Shown here: positions 30,336 to 37,099 of the stretch, piece by piece | How positions within the stretch are numbered: position 1 is the stretch's first letter | Layout: every line of letters begins with the position of its first letter | From: Bacteroidia bacterium | GTDB taxonomy: Bacteria > Bacteroidota > Bacteroidia > UKL13-3 | Length of the DNA stretch: 53,149 bases | Reading direction: 5' to 3' | NCBI GenBank assembly: GCA_023151275.1 | Contig: JAKLJI010000003.1 | Coordinates: forward strand, 146,357-199,505 | Translations under genes and position numbers: made by a program | The notes under the pieces: model-generated | The model's database searches: none | What the model was told of the DNA's origin: nothing | What the model saw: the letters and a program-made list of their open reading frames with translations, nothing else

Positions 30336-30508
30336 GGGTATAGCAAGGGCACATTATTTATTTTGTGCTACAACAAAGTAAGCCGGGATGAGGGTACCAA
30401 ATGAATTCACTTATTAACCCGAATTATTTAGGTGTCTATTTTTTTGACAACAGGGAAAATGCGTATTTTTTTTACGACATTCGACCGCGTTTGAACAGTC
30501 CTGAACCT
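30336..30508. promoter_or_regulatory. Divergent intergenic region of the polysaccharide locus
   Basis: Lies between the minus-strand TolC-like start and the plus-strand GT4 start. Both strands carry T-rich words close to the Bacteroidota -7 motif (TACTTTG on minus, TATTTTG on plus near 30358-30365), so promoters in both directions are plausible but not proven. Confidence 0.35.
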
Positions 30509-31694
30509 ATGAAAAATCGCGACATTATTATTACCGGACTTCAGCCTTACGACATGGCAATCGGTAGTAATTGCATCAATATTGCCGAGGAGCTGGCAAA
30601 GGAAAACAGGGTTTTGTATGTGAATTACGCATTTGACAGAGGTAGCCTCAAAAAGGAAAAGGATAAGCCCAATGTTCAAAAGCGTATGCGCATGCTTAGC
30701 GGCCAGGAGGAAAACCTGGTTATGGTGCATAATAACCTCTGGATTTACTACCCCAATACTTTACTCGAAAACATCAATTGGATTCCTTCTACACAATTGT
30801 TTCGGATTGCAAATCGAATAAACAACATCCGCTTTGCTCGCGAGATAAAAAAGGCAATCGACTTGCTGGGCTTGAAAAATTTCTGTCTGTTTACGGATAG
30901 CGATATGTTTAGAAGTTACCACTTGAAAGAAATGCTAAAACCAGCTTTATCCATTTATTACACACGCGACAACATGATGAGCGTGCCTTATTGGAAAAAG
31001 CACGGACAGTTTTTGGAGCCGGAATTTATGGCCAAAGTGGACTTGGTTTGTGCAAATTCTACGTACCTATCTGAACTGGCAGCCAAACACAATAAGCAGT
31101 CGTTTTATGTTGGCCAAGGATGTGATATCAGTGCATTTGATCCTGAAATCAGAAGAACCATTCCGCCCGATATTGCAACCATAAAACAACCTGTCATTGG
31201 CTATATTGGTGCGCTTTACACCCTTCGTCTTGACCTTGAAATCATTCGTAAAATTGCGCAAGGTCAACCCGATTGGCAAGTTGTTTTGATTGGTCCTGAA
31301 GATGAGGGATTCAAAAACTCGGATTTGCATGCATTACCCAATGTACACTTTGGTTAACCAACTTGCAGATTACTTGGAAGCATTTGATGTGGCCATTAAT
31401 CCACAAATCTTGAATGAAGTTACCATTGGCAATTATCCACGGAAAATAGATGAATACCTGGCTATGGGCAAACCTGTTGTTGCAACGGCTACCAAGGCTA
31501 TGGAGATTTTTGCCGAACATACCTATTTGGCTAAAGAACCAAACGAATACATTCCGCTGATTAAAAAAGCACTCGCCGAAAATAATTCTTCCCGCATTCA
31601 AGCGCGTATAACCTTTGCACAAACTCATACTTGGGAAAACAGTGTAAAGGCTATTTATAAAGCCATTCAAAGCGTTAAACCTGAATATTGCTAA
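30509..31694 (+). pseudogene. Glycosyltransferase family 4, frameshifted
   Basis: Start chosen at MKNRDIIITGLQPYDMAIGS; an upstream in-frame ATG at 30401 adds an unlikely leader. The first frame runs to a stop at 31357 (ending LPNVHFG) and includes LVCANSTYLSELAAKHNKQ, VGQGCDISAFDPE and PVIGYIGALYTLRLDLEI. The donor-side half continues in another frame from about 31350: NQLADYLEAFDVAINPQ, NYPRKIDEYLAMGKPVVATA. Compared with relatives a few residues between HF and QL are missing, so a small out-of-frame deletion near 31352-31358 is the likely cause. Truncated product or sequencing error. Confidence 0.8.
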
Positions 31695-32651: not shown

Positions 32652-33848
32652 TTATACGTTCTCTTTTTGAAATAAGGCAGGAATCGTTCTTAGAATAAGT
32701 TTAATATCATTCCACAAGGAATAATTTTTGGCATATTCATTATCTAATTCCATGCGCTCCTCTTCACTCATTGGTCCGCCTCTTCCGCGCTTAGTAACCT
32801 GCCAAAGGCCGGTAATTCCAGCAGGAGCAAGGAAGCGTAAGGAGAAATGGTCGGTAGTTAATTTCTCAGCTTCATACAATGGCAAAGGACGATTTCCAAC
32901 AATACTCATATCCCCTTTCAACACATTGAACAACTGAGGCAATTCATCCATACTGGTATTGCGAAGAATTTTTCCAAAGGTGGTAATGCGTGGGTCATTT
33001 TCAATTTTGATGAATTTTGAACCTTCTTTGATTCGCTTCACATCAGCAAATACCTTTTCGCAAATCATATCACCGTCCATATACAATTTGTTGCGGCAGG
33101 TTGATTTAGCCAATTTACATTCTTCGCAGAGGAAGTTTTTGTAATCATCAATTGTTTTTTCATCCGCCGCCGGAGTGTATTGATTCAAATGCTTGAGGTT
33201 TTTTAGCATGGCGTCAGCACCTTGCCTCATCGACCTAAACTTGTAAAAATCAAACATTACATAACCGGTACCAACGCGTTTTGCGGCATAAAATACCGGT
33301 CCTTTTGATTCGAGACGAATGATAATTGCAATTAACAAGAACAAGGGACTAAGCAACAAAATGGCAAAGGAAGCCACAGCCACATCAAAAATACGTTTTG
33401 ACAGCGGCATACTGTATTTTGGGAACTCGGTCCTGGCATCCAAAATGGACTTGTGGTAACGCGGCGGATTTTGAATAAGGTATAGCGCCCTGTTCAAAAA
33501 TTCCTCCTTGTTTACAGGCCTTTCAAAAATGTCGGCAAACTGTTCATGCAGTGCAATATTCCGGCTGGCATCGGTAATCCTATCTACAATGAGCACAAAG
33601 GGAACATTCGCTGTTTTGGGAACATTCTTGCAGTTTTTGCGCAAGGTAATTCCATTCACTCCCAACAAATCAGAATGCGGAACAATAAGCTTTACAGGCT
33701 CATTTTTGTTCGTCCATTGAATGAATTGGAAGATATTATCGAAATGAAAAATCTCGAATTCTTCCTTAAACAAATGCGAAAACTCCACTATGGAGTCGGC
33801 ATTTGTTGAGATAAAGGCAATACGTGGTTTGTTCTGAACCGTTTCCAT
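32652..33848 (-). CDS. Priming sugar transferase fused to an N-terminal pseudo-receiver domain
   Basis: 398 residues. Residues 8-128 have receiver-like secondary structure but lack its active site: the acceptor Asp position reads His58 (LIVPHSDLLGVNG), the acidic pair is absent (FISTNAD) and the conserved Lys is Arg110 (FERPV). From 150 it is a bacterial sugar transferase of the WcaJ/WbaP type: KRIFDVAVASFAILLLSPLF membrane hairpin, KFRSMRQGAD, DPRITTFGKILRNTSMDELP and VGNRPLPLYEAE. An extra segment of about 60 residues (220-280) carries Cys241, Cys244, Cys251 and Cys263, a possible metal site. It starts polysaccharide assembly on undecaprenyl phosphate. First two genes of this operon are response regulators. 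Confidence 0.9.
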   Translation of the reverse strand: METVQNKPRIAFISTNADSIVEFSHLFKEEFEIFHFDNIFQFIQWTNKNEPVKLIVPHSDLLGVNGITLRKNCKNVPKTANVPFVLIVDRITDASRNIALHEQFADIFERPVNKEEFLNRALYLIQNPPRYHKSILDARTEFPKYSMPLSKRIFDVAVASFAILLLSPLFLLIAIIIRLESKGPVFYAAKRVGTGYVMFDFYKFRSMRQGADAMLKNLKHLNQYTPAADEKTIDDYKNFLCEECKLAKSTCRNKLYMDGDMICEKVFADVKRIKEGSKFIKIENDPRITTFGKILRNTSMDELPQLFNVLKGDMSIVGNRPLPLYEAEKLTTDHFSLRFLAPAGITGLWQVTKRGRGGPMSEEERMELDNEYAKNYSLWNDIKLILRTIPALFQKENV

Positions 33849-33850
33849 GA

Positions 33851-34231
33851 TCAGACTTTTTTGAGGCGACGAAAAATATTTTCGATACGGGCATCAAGCT
33901 CTTCCGGATTAAACGGTTTGATAACATAATCATCGGCACCCGCCTTTAAACAACGAATCTTATCAGCAGTGCCTTCGTTTCCGGAAAGCATAATTAGCGG
34001 AATATCCTTAAAAAAGCCGCTTGAGCGAATTTGTTTGATGAATTCAATTCCATTCAACTCAGGCATATTAATATCTGCAATAATCACATCCGGAATTACA
34101 CCTTGCTGCATCCATTCCAATGCTTCTTTCCCATTTTGCTTAGCAACCACGTTGTAGGATTTTCCAAAGTAGAAATCAAGTATCTTGAGGATACTGATTT
34201 CATCATCCAGGGCTAATAGCGTCTTTTTCAT
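33851..34231 (-). CDS. Stand-alone response regulator receiver protein
   Basis: 126 residues, a complete CheY-like receiver with nothing else. Acidic pair Asp9-Asp10 (LLALDDE), phospho-acceptor Asp53 (VIIADINMPELNG), Thr/Ser position in IMLSGNEG and Lys105 (DYVIKPFNPEE). It sits 2 bp before the pseudo-receiver sugar transferase and 9 bp after the sigma-54 regulator, so it could act on either by protein contact. No histidine kinase is encoded in the window. Confidence 0.93.
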   Translation of the reverse strand: MKKTLLALDDEISILKILDFYFGKSYNVVAKQNGKEALEWMQQGVIPDVIIADINMPELNGIEFIKQIRSSGFFKDIPLIMLSGNEGTADKIRCLKAGADDYVIKPFNPEELDARIENIFRRLKKV

Positions 34232-34240
34232 AGTGTAAGA

Positions 34241-35617
34241 TTATTTTTCGTTCATTAATTTCTGGAAAGAATCCGATTTCATAATTCTATATATGGTTGA
34301 TTTTCCAACCTCCAGCTTTTTGGCAACTGTAATTACATTGCCATTGTATTTATCCAAATAGGTTTTAATAATCAGGTTATTGAAATCATCCAGCGTCATT
34401 TCACGGCTGAGGTAGCTGCTCATCGACTTATCGCTGTTATAGGTAATGTCTTTGGCTTCAATAATACCACCATCGCACATCACACAGGCCAAATCAATAA
34501 TTGCTTTCAACTCGCGAATATTACCTGGATAAGAATAATCAAGCAATCTCTTTTGAGCATCCGAACTTAGCATGATTTTTCCCATCTTATTCTCCTTGCA
34601 AAATTCGTCAATAAATGCTTTACTAATATGAATAATATCATATCCTCTATCGCGAAGTGGAGGCAGAGCAATTGGTAATCCCAACAAGCGGTAATACAAG
34701 TCTTCCCTAAATCTGCCGGCTTGAATCTCTTCTGAAAGATTTTTATGCGTGGCAACAATTACCCGCACATCTACGGGTATAGTTTGGTTTCCACCAATTC
34801 GGGTAACTTCTCTTTCCTGCAAAACACGCAGCAATTTAGCTTGAAGACTAAGGTCTAACTCCCCTATTTCATCCAAAAAAATCGTTCCCTTATGCGCCAG
34901 CTCAAACTTACCTATTCGGCGCGCATCGGCTCCGGTAAAGGCACCTTTTTCATGACCAAACAACTCACTTTCAATCAATTCTTTTGGAATGGCAGCCACG
35001 TTAACAGGAACAAATGCTGCTTTTTTGCGTTCGCTGTGGTAGTGAATCGCCTTGGCAACCAACTCTTTACCAGTTCCAGTTTCGCCTGTTATAGAAACGG
35101 TTATTTTACTATTTGCGGCTTTCTCAATCAGGCTAAACGTTTGTTTGATTAAATCGCTGTTGCCAATAATGGTTTTGCTGAAATCGTATTTTTTCCCAAG
35201 GTCTTCGCGCAGGTTGCTGATTTCTGAACGCAAAGCCGAGTTGGTTAAGGCATTGTTGATGGAGTTCAACAAGCGAGGTTTGGTATCCTCATTTTTGATG
35301 ATGTAATCAAAAACACCCAACTTCAACAACTCAACTGCTGTTCCTACATCTTCTTGTCCTGAAATAACCATGATTTGAGCATGGTCGTCCAGCTCCTTAA
35401 TCTTTTTAATTAATTCGGCTCCGTTCATTCCGGGCAAGGAGTAATCAACTGTGATTAAGTCTGGTTTCTTATGGAGGTTGGCCAGACATTCTTTTGCATC
35501 GGCAAATGCTTCTACCTTGTAATCCGGATTCAGACTAACAGAATAGCTTAAAAAATTACGGTACCAAGTATCGTCCTCAACAATAAAAATAGTAAAGCCG
35601 GTTTTGCTGCGCGTCAT
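34241..35617 (-). CDS. Sigma-54-dependent response regulator (NtrC family)
   Basis: 458 residues. Receiver 8-125 with Glu14-Asp15-Asp16, phospho-acceptor Asp58 (DLITVDYSLPGMNG) and Lys108. AAA+ domain with Walker A GETGTGKE (178-185), the sigma-54 contact loop GAFTGA (225-230), Walker B GTIFLDEIGELD and RFREDLYYRLLGLPI. C-terminal Fis-type helix-turn-helix (ITVAKKLEVGKSTIYRIM). It activates RpoN promoters, probably of the polysaccharide locus beside it, given the shared operon with the sugar transferase. Confidence 0.95.
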   Translation of the reverse strand: MTRSKTGFTIFIVEDDTWYRNFLSYSVSLNPDYKVEAFADAKECLANLHKKPDLITVDYSLPGMNGAELIKKIKELDDHAQIMVISGQEDVGTAVELLKLGVFDYIIKNEDTKPRLLNSINNALTNSALRSEISNLREDLGKKYDFSKTIIGNSDLIKQTFSLIEKAANSKITVSITGETGTGKELVAKAIHYHSERKKAAFVPVNVAAIPKELIESELFGHEKGAFTGADARRIGKFELAHKGTIFLDEIGELDLSLQAKLLRVLQEREVTRIGGNQTIPVDVRVIVATHKNLSEEIQAGRFREDLYYRLLGLPIALPPLRDRGYDIIHISKAFIDEFCKENKMGKIMLSSDAQKRLLDYSYPGNIRELKAIIDLACVMCDGGIIEAKDITYNSDKSMSSYLSREMTLDDFNNLIIKTYLDKYNGNVITVAKKLEVGKSTIYRIMKSDSFQKLMNEK

Positions 35618-35742: not shown

Positions 35743-36471
35743 TTATCGAAACTTCGACTTATAGATTTGCATGAGGGTTGCCTTAGAATTTTCGGAGAAT
35801 TTAGAATTGTAAATCATACCGAAAGCGCCTCCGGTTTCAATAGAATCGTACACCTTGGCTTTCAAAGGCCGATGATGAAATACCGCAATCAATTCCTTTC
35901 GGTAAAAAATAAGCAACAAACGCGGACGAAACTCCCTCTTCTGAAAATCAAAATCATTCAGCAAAAAGCTTTTATAATCTCCCTGTTCAGGCATTTCCTG
36001 AAGTTTGAAGGTATCTAAAAAGCTTTGAAAAAACTCCTGCCGACTGTTGGGAAGCGCCACCATCAGCAATTTTTGCAGTTCAGCTTCTGCTACAGAAATC
36101 ACATCGATGCTGGCATGCTCCAGGTAGGCATCAATCCATATTTTTACAAGCGTATCGTTTTGCGGAAACTCCTGAATGGGATTGAATGGCCGGATGACTT
36201 TTCCGACTTTTTTGCCGTTTGCATCGTACAAAACAGCCCCACGTTTGAGCTGAATTTCGTCATATTGTCCATCTTTCTTCACCCACAATTCAAGCCAAAC
36301 CCTACTCAATCTAGCATTGAAAGGATGTGCAATGAAGGCGGTACCACTTTTTATTTCAAGCACAGCCTCCCCATCCGGTTCGGCGCGAAGCTGGGCTATT
36401 CCACCCGAATATTCGGCCCTAACCACCAAGGTAGCCAGCAGAAAAAATAGGACTAAGCTATTTCTTAGCAA
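35743..36471 (-). CDS. Secreted protein of unknown function
   Basis: 242 residues from a TTG codon (MLRNSLVLFFLLATLVVRAE), which gives a clean signal peptide and overlaps the DedA gene by 14 bp. The frame is open to an ATG at 36528, but that would add 19 residues encoded inside the DedA gene; either start is possible. The mature part begins YSGGIAQLRAEPDGEAVLEI and contains FNARLSRVWLELWVKKDGQY and REFRPRLLLIFYRKELIAVF. No family recognised. Coupled to DedA, so an envelope role is likely. Confidence 0.7.
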   Translation of the reverse strand: MLRNSLVLFFLLATLVVRAEYSGGIAQLRAEPDGEAVLEIKSGTAFIAHPFNARLSRVWLELWVKKDGQYDEIQLKRGAVLYDANGKKVGKVIRPFNPIQEFPQNDTLVKIWIDAYLEHASIDVISVAEAELQKLLMVALPNSRQEFFQSFLDTFKLQEMPEQGDYKSFLLNDFDFQKREFRPRLLLIFYRKELIAVFHHRPLKAKVYDSIETGGAFGMIYNSKFSENSKATLMQIYKSKFR

Positions 36472-37099
36472 AACGATGTTTAACAAATTCAAATACAACA
36501 GGAAGCAGAGAAACCAAAATGATGCCAAAAACTACTTTTTCAAAATTGGCTTTGATCCAAGGTAAACTGCCAAAGAAATAACCTGCAAGCGAAATGGAGG
36601 TAACCCAAAGAATTGCACCTGCCACGCAATACGACATGTATTTTTTGTAGGTCATATTGCCTACCCCGGCCACAAAAGGAGCAAAGGTTCTTACAATTGG
36701 AACAAAACGCGCAATGATAATGGTACGTGCTCCATGCTTTTCGTAGAAGGCATGGGTTTTATCGAGGTAATCTTTACGAATGGTGAAAACACCGAATAGT
36801 TTTGCTCCTTCTCCCTTTTTGGCAAGGAATTTTCCAATAAAATAATTGGAATTATCACCCAACAAAGCAGCAGTTATCAGTAAAATAATAATCAAGGTAA
36901 TACTTAAGCCATTTTGCTCATTGGCAGCTAGTGCACCTGCGGCAAAAAGCAACGAATCACCCGGTAAAAATGGCGTTACCACCAATCCTGTTTCCATAAA
37001 CACAATCAAGAAAAGCAACCCATAAACCAGGGTACCATAAGCCGTAATAAAATCCTGAAGGTGTTTGTCGAAATGAAGAATAAAATCAATCAGTTCCAT
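36458..37099 (-). CDS. DedA family (VTT-domain) membrane protein
   Basis: 213 residues, five or six helices. Typical motifs: FMETGLVVTPFLPGDSLLFA near the N-terminus, LGDNSNYFIGKFLAKKG, FYEKHGARTIIIARFVPIVR (the conserved arginine segment) and TFAPFVAGVGNMTYKKY. DedA proteins move or flip phospholipids or undecaprenyl phosphate and support membrane homeostasis. Here it is next to polysaccharide genes that also use undecaprenyl carriers. Confidence 0.95.
   Translation of the reverse strand: MELIDFILHFDKHLQDFITAYGTLVYGLLFLIVFMETGLVVTPFLPGDSLLFAAGALAANEQNGLSITLIIILLITAALLGDNSNYFIGKFLAKKGEGAKLFGVFTIRKDYLDKTHAFYEKHGARTIIIARFVPIVRTFAPFVAGVGNMTYKKYMSYCVAGAILWVTSISLAGYFFGSLPWIKANFEKVVFGIILVSLLPVVFEFVKHRFAKK

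Follow-up and report, generated by a model that had tools for sequence, protein, structure and literature searches.

A Bacteroidota family of receiver-paired priming phosphoglycosyl transferases, many with a degenerate receiver domain and a four-cysteine mobile loop

The nearest regulatory precedent for the locus reported here is the EpsW/EpsZ pair of Myxococcus xanthus, in which (PMC12802240) the phosphorylated form of EpsW, a single-domain response regulator encoded in a polysaccharide locus, activates EpsZ, the initiating phosphoglycosyl transferase (PGT). As described there, EpsZ belongs to the large monotopic PGTs and carries a DUF in addition to its transmembrane bundle. The same text sets out the DX12P motif of monotopic PGTs and cites O'Toole et al. 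(2021, PNAS) for receiver domains fused to small monotopic PGTs. Structurally, the nearest reference is Campylobacter PglC (PDB 8e37, 8g1n), the mobile loop of which comprises residues 61-81 in two reports (PMC10519829, PMC12550135); the first ties closure of this loop to ligand binding through crystals and simulation, the second through simulation together with smFRET using nucleoside analogues.

Here we describe a locus in a 53,149-nucleotide stretch of DNA from a Bacteroidia bacterium (contig JAKLJI010000003.1, positions 146,357 to 199,505; hereafter the window), the features of which are collected in Table 1. As anatomy, it is close to certain that this locus encodes a receiver-paired priming transferase. 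It resembles the EpsW/EpsZ system in that an intact single-domain response regulator is encoded beside the PGT, on which we propose that it acts, and resembles the fusions attributed to O'Toole et al. (2021), as cited in PMC12802240, in that a receiver-type domain is joined to a small monotopic PGT. The enzyme itself differs from EpsZ in being of the small type and in having a pseudo-receiver and an expanded, four-cysteine mobile loop; where WbaP and EpsZ are described in the same source as having an N-terminal membrane bundle, the model of the window enzyme has a receiver fold instead of a transmembrane bundle and DUF. With PglC it shares the catalytic fold, the DX12P helix, the Asp-Glu dyad and the position of the mobile loop, although PglC chains lack the N-terminal receiver fold and align only from model residue 146 onwards. 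With WcaJ, WbaP and the EPS_sugtrans proteins it shares a homologous catalytic domain.

Table 1. Features of the receiver/transferase locus (positions are those of the window)
Feature	Position	Strand	Evidence
Sigma-54-dependent response regulator (458 aa) that opens a three-gene run	34241..35617	-	PF00072 + PF00158 + AAA lid
Stand-alone single-domain receiver, 126 aa, intact D10/D53/S83/K105	33851..34231	-	PF00072, E 9.7e-27
Pseudo-receiver/phosphoglycosyl transferase fusion, 398 aa	32652..33848	-	ORF; PF02397; AF2 model
Pseudo-receiver domain, residues 7-130	33459..33830	-	VIA to 3gl9; comparison with partner receivers
Catalytic domain, residues 151-393	32670..33398	-	PF02397; DX12P helix D155, P168; D301-E302 dyad
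Expanded mobile loop, residues 207-287	32988..33230	-	phmmer + VIA ranges to WbaP/PglC
Four-cysteine motif C241-x2-C244-x6-C251-x11-C263	33060..33128	-	Sequence
Terminator-like stem-loop with T/A tracts, immediately following the PGT stop codon	32606..32644	.	18-pair stem

The catalytic domain matches PF02397 (Bac_transf) with an E value of 1.6e-58 and 197.6 bits against a cut-off of 27, as is characteristic of small monotopic PGTs. Both the DX12P re-entrant helix and the Asp-Glu dyad, the latter a feature of small monotopic PGTs, are present, their four defining residues being invariant across 40 aligned relatives. The AF2 model (mean pLDDT 79.4, pTM 0.56) has ten-residue blocks that are mostly above 85 in the receiver and mostly 73-96 in the catalytic domain, with a dip to 55 at residues 351-360, and aligns with PglC (8e37) with a VIA Z score of 21.2 and an rmsd of 2.9 over 182 residues. 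The protein matches the WcaJ/WbaP models (TIGR03023, TIGR03022) and EPS_sugtrans (TIGR03025) with E values from 1.2e-71 to 3.5e-60, in each case below the curated cut-off (204.6 versus 410.75 for the WcaJ equivalog TIGR03023, 212 versus 403 for TIGR03022 and 242.3 versus 295.55 for TIGR03025); the EpsZ equivalog NF041877 likewise scores 153.1 versus 800. The window enzyme is a small-type monotopic PGT that probably primes an exopolysaccharide pathway, in which role it would load undecaprenyl phosphate with a sugar phosphate taken from a nucleotide sugar.

The original prediction of a receiver-like domain without a phosphorylation site is borne out. The model of residues 7-127 has the fold of a receiver (3gl9, VIA Z 17.7, rmsd 2.1 over 120 residues), and the PDB receiver 2zay is matched by sequence (E 2.9e-5); the Pfam receiver domain gave no match to the window PGT even at E≤10. 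On alignment with the intact neighbouring receiver, His58 of the window protein stands in place of the phosphorylated Asp, Ser14/Thr15 in place of the acidic pair, Val88 in place of the Thr/Ser and Arg110 in place of the Lys, i.e. the domain is not a phosphorylatable receiver of the PF00072 type and, on the model, is a pseudo-receiver in the sense of a receiver fold without the phosphorylation residues. Among relatives, a profile of intact receivers matches 61 of 82 N-terminal domains, the remaining 21 being assigned as receiver-like by alignment and length alone. Across 81 pseudo-receivers, the positions equal to receiver D10, D53, S83 and K105 carry only 0.51-1.45 bits, and the phosphorylation position is Asp in 15 and Glu in 23; the whole set of phosphorylation residues is kept in a single receiver-like N terminus (L108, discussed below). 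The evidence thus supports the N-terminal domain being a degenerate receiver that has lost its phosphorylation residues.

The best-conserved positions of the pseudo-receivers lie elsewhere, at Arg120 (Arg in 69 of 81, 3.35 bits), at Asp106 (64 Asp and 11 Glu, 3.25 bits) and at one hydrophobic position, Ile55 (3.25 bits). We take the equivalents of Asp106 and Arg120 in PhoB/ArcA-type receivers to lie on the α4-β5-α5 dimer face, a role on which our literature search gave nothing useful. On that assignment, the conservation pattern suggests a domain that has lost its chemistry and kept its surface.

The window protein is not a one-off: by sequence, it belongs to a Bacteroidota-wide protein family, found in at least 54 of the 395 genomes sampled from the class (E≤1e-45 with L108 as query, scoring no more than 4 candidates per genome) and in at least 33 of 296 genomes of a phylum sample (profile, E≤1e-50, no more than 6 candidates per genome). 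The 93 members analyzed, which were selected among the fetched matches for their resemblance to the window protein and deduplicated on their last 150 residues, with near-copies and two contig-edge fragments (L044, L045) dropped, fall on one side of a 99-supported branch, with 11 other PGTs on the other; all 93 have the Asp-Glu dyad pattern. Many members are close relatives, so that counts within the family are of sequences and not of independent events. The extra N-terminal domain is present in 82 of the 93 members, with 11 lacking it. Neither the fusion nor the cysteine insert is peculiar to the window gene, both being marks of a phylum-wide family; nor were they found to be universal with a known unrelated role, since both are common rather than universal and the literature searched describes no role for them. 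No word starting with 'bacteroid' occurs in the main text of the EpsW/EpsZ report (PMC12802240).

Seven copies of the family come from plasmid records. Those from the gut species Bacteroides finegoldii, Parabacteroides distasonis and Phocaeicola massiliensis (L205, L206 and L211), deposited as plasmids, and that from a Flammeovirgaceae strain have the N-terminal domain and a receiver directly upstream. The N-terminal domain is absent from the other three, of which the Hymenobacter yonginensis copy has an adjacent receiver and the Salinibacter ruber copy has a receiver approximately 4 kb away on the opposite strand; no receiver was found on the Aureispira anguillae record. Hymenobacter is the only one of the seven with the cysteine motif.

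Pairing was scored by a simple rule, under which a single-domain receiver gene counts if it is encoded on the strand of the enzyme and no more than 250 bp upstream of it. Of the 82 members with the N-terminal domain, 81 have such a receiver, 74 of them within 50 bp, and the same rule gives 0 of 22 for same-strand single-domain receivers beside other PGTs, a control set drawn partly from the same genomes as the family members and in which four sequences have limited flanks (short for L001, L003 and L050, and ending at the gene for L143). The partner receivers are intact at K105 and S/T83 in 85 of 85, at D53 in 80 and at D10 in 79. Where a genome has two pseudo-receiver copies (G353, G343 and G141), each of the six copies has its own adjacent receiver. 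Among 64 genomes of the taxonomic family to which the window belongs, 25 have the PGT, and those 25 also have the receiver; the only other genome with a receiver is G012, which has a fragment (88 residues in a 97-codon open frame) and no PGT. The near-constant presence of a working receiver beside these enzymes makes it plausible that the priming reaction is the point at which signals turn slime production on or off; synteny of receiver and PGT is, in itself, a sign of functional linkage and not of contact.

The sole exception among the 82 is L108, in which an intact receiver (PF00072, E 1.8e-21) is fused to the enzyme, with neither a cysteine motif nor a separate receiver alongside; its genome (G001) also has a second copy of the usual pseudo-receiver type, which is paired with a receiver of its own. 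The L108 gene (6188-7321, minus strand), with its apparently phosphorylatable receiver, may be viewed as a natural one-piece version of the system. A triple fusion of receiver, pseudo-receiver and PGT was not seen, the longest open reading frame among the family members scanned being 461 aa. A remote relative (L155:5534-6694, minus strand) has a receiver-like N terminus and a receiver 22 bp upstream and lacks the catalytic Asp-Glu dyad pattern; it is possibly a dead priming transferase with its regulatory layout kept. It was left out of the family and control counts, which would become 94 members and 82 of 83 pairings were it taken as a member, or 1 of 23 were it taken as a control.

On balance, the best explanation of these observations is that the phosphorylated receiver probably gates the PGT directly, in part, probably, through the pseudo-receiver. 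The intact upstream receiver would carry the signal, being phosphorylated by a histidine kinase; it would then dock on the PGT, probably pairing with the pseudo-receiver via α4-β5-α5, perhaps with further contacts to the catalytic domain or its lid; and docking would switch PGT activity, i.e. the first step of polysaccharide synthesis. Given the receiver pairing and the EpsW/EpsZ precedent, we consider action of the receiver on the enzyme by contact to be likely, and docking through the pseudo-receiver to be evenly poised. Contact between the two proteins, the face through which they would dock and whether docking raises or lowers activity are all inferred.

The members without a pseudo-receiver bear directly on the docking site. 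Among these 11, the receiver adjoins the enzyme in four (L197, L198, L199 and L201), lies 2.1-2.8 kb upstream in five, and is not found on the same strand within 5 kb upstream in two. Because these four and the Hymenobacter plasmid copy keep an adjoining receiver, the receiver is not strictly dependent on the pseudo-receiver, nor is the pseudo-receiver the sole docking site, and strict interdependence of the two was rejected. The same five cases are what might be expected were the receiver to dock on the catalytic domain or lid, with the pseudo-receiver serving as a dimerization or stability module that makes no contact with it, as is the precedent that EpsZ, which is described with a DUF and a transmembrane bundle and not with a receiver domain, has been modelled with EpsW on its cytoplasmic part (PMC12802240). 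We nonetheless regard this alternative as unlikely, since adjacency is tighter in members with the N-terminal domain (81 of 82) than in those without it (4 of 11), and since the fused intact receiver of L108 takes the place of the pseudo-receiver and of the stand-alone receiver alike.

The window genes for the sigma-54 regulator, the receiver and the PGT are co-directional and separated by gaps of 9 and 2 bp, as anticipated for an operon with a true receiver and a sigma-54 regulator. The stem-loop after the PGT gene suggests that the three-gene run probably ends there; it was listed on the plus strand by the scan, and for the minus strand the A tract that precedes the stem would do service. 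This arrangement, and the tracking of the receiver by the sigma-54 regulator within the window's taxonomic family, where an orthologue (≥69% identity) occurs in the same 26 genomes that have the receiver and lies upstream in all 18 pseudo-receiver rows (duplicates included), would also be consistent with a receiver that is merely co-transcribed with the enzyme and acts elsewhere, e.g. as a phosphate shuttle or sink for the sigma-54 regulator, without regulation by contact. That account is distinctly unlikely in our judgement: outside the window's family the receiver stays by the enzyme, whereas the sigma-54 regulator was seen only in L087 and L105, adjacent in neither, and where a genome has two pseudo-receiver copies, both have a receiver next to them. 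The regulator, which is divergent beside L108, a second PGT copy whose genome belongs to the family of the window itself, is therefore a steady neighbour in that family only and not a general part of the system. The proposal that signals act directly on the first step of polysaccharide synthesis is accordingly strengthened with respect to the receiver, by its pairing (81 of 82 versus 0 of 22) and by the experimental precedent of EpsW/EpsZ (PMC12802240), and weakened with respect to the sigma-54 regulator.

A scan of the window for sigma-54 promoters gave 40 matches (≤2 mismatches) against 36.2 expected, i.e. no excess, and a Pfam scan of the eight window proteins around the gene found no kinase. 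Candidate kinases do neighbour some relatives: in L198, from another class, a hybrid kinase composed of HisKA, HATPase, receiver and Hpt domains precedes the receiver/enzyme pair, and the neighbourhood of L108 comprises a FIST protein, a PAS/HisKA kinase and the sigma-54 regulator. No orthologue of the latter kinase was found in the genome of the window, where there is only partial, 31-47% similarity to other kinase-like frames.

The second distinctive feature of the enzyme is its mobile loop. Cysteines 241, 244, 251 and 263 sit between KFRSM (203-207) and DPRIT (285-289), in a region where 56 window residues (219-274) lie opposite nine in WbaP (phmmer alignment). Because M207 corresponds to PglC Met63 and R287 to PglC Arg79 (from phmmer and VIA ranges, assuming no intervening gaps), the insert is placed in the mobile loop, which in PglC spans residues 61-81 and in the window enzyme has approximately 80 residues and four cysteines. 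The loop exceeds 50 residues in 78 of the 93 family members. The expectation that the CxxC-x6-C-x11-C insert would be absent from ordinary enzymes holds, with the complete motif in 0 of 22 other PGTs; within the family, it is complete in 57 of 93 members and partial in none, with a spacing of C-x2-C-x5..8-C-x11..12-C. Of the 36 members without it, 34 have no loop cysteine (including L082, the loop of which was unreadable by the motif pattern and was judged by eye), L126 has one and L081 has two. On a tree built without the loop, the cysteine state changes approximately 12 times, although many forks are weak and the starred branches alone force only one change.

Gain and loss of the motif as one unit is the pattern expected of a metal site, with the metal itself putative. 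We consider it likely that the loop cysteines hold zinc, the sequence pattern fitting best with a structural zinc site that stiffens the lid. Structure prediction, the proposed route to such a site, was carried out and yielded low confidence for the insert (pLDDT 55-67 for residues 221-280 of the full model; mean pLDDT 57.7 when modelled alone with 56 sequences), so that no metal geometry is shown. Across 56 aligned motif-bearing loops the four cysteines are invariant and no His is; this, the complete-or-absent distribution of the motif, and the absence of all four cysteines from the plasmid records of the gut Bacteroidales B. finegoldii, P. distasonis and P. massiliensis could be read as pointing to a redox or iron-sulphur sensor in the lid in place of structural zinc. 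Such a sensor seems to us quite improbable, given that the Bacteroidales MAGs L019 and L020 retain all four cysteines and that an insert profile run against PDB sequences and Pfam gave no link to an iron-sulphur protein, although these are weak tests that returned no zinc fold of weight either. A more elaborate scheme, in which a receiver/pseudo-receiver heterodimer moves a metal-clamped lid that is also sensitive to zinc or redox state, such that kinase and metal or redox signals would be summed before undecaprenyl phosphate is committed, is, in our estimation, improbable. In one member (L018:847-2205, plus strand) the loop has 134 residues, with approximately 60 extra before the four-cysteine motif, which shows how much added sequence the lid can take.

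The combination of a four-cysteine lid with two receivers, one dead and part of the enzyme and the other a separate partner, was not found in the literature searched and is what is new here. That a single-domain regulator can act directly on a priming PGT is already established, to our knowledge in one system, EpsW/EpsZ. The breadth of the Bacteroidota family, and the natural series of variants that it provides, with and without the pseudo-receiver, with and without the cysteines, and with one fused intact receiver, mean that such control could be tested in a large number of species, among them the gut Bacteroides, Parabacteroides and Phocaeicola with the receiver/enzyme pair. The cysteine site in the lid provides a concrete handle on the route by which a signal might reach the active site. 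These features bear on the question, posed as open in PMC12802240, of how scarce undecaprenyl phosphate is kept from draining into one polysaccharide.

Two further observations concern the neighbourhood of the gene. At 30401-31694 of the window (plus strand), a glycosyltransferase is split into two overlapping open reading frames of 318 and 134 aa in different frames, its homologues having 377-471 aa, mostly approximately 400; the split is probably a frameshift or an assembly error. At 35743-36528 (minus strand), a 261-aa protein with no Pfam family is kept upstream of the sigma-54 regulator in relatives, with 34-43% identity.
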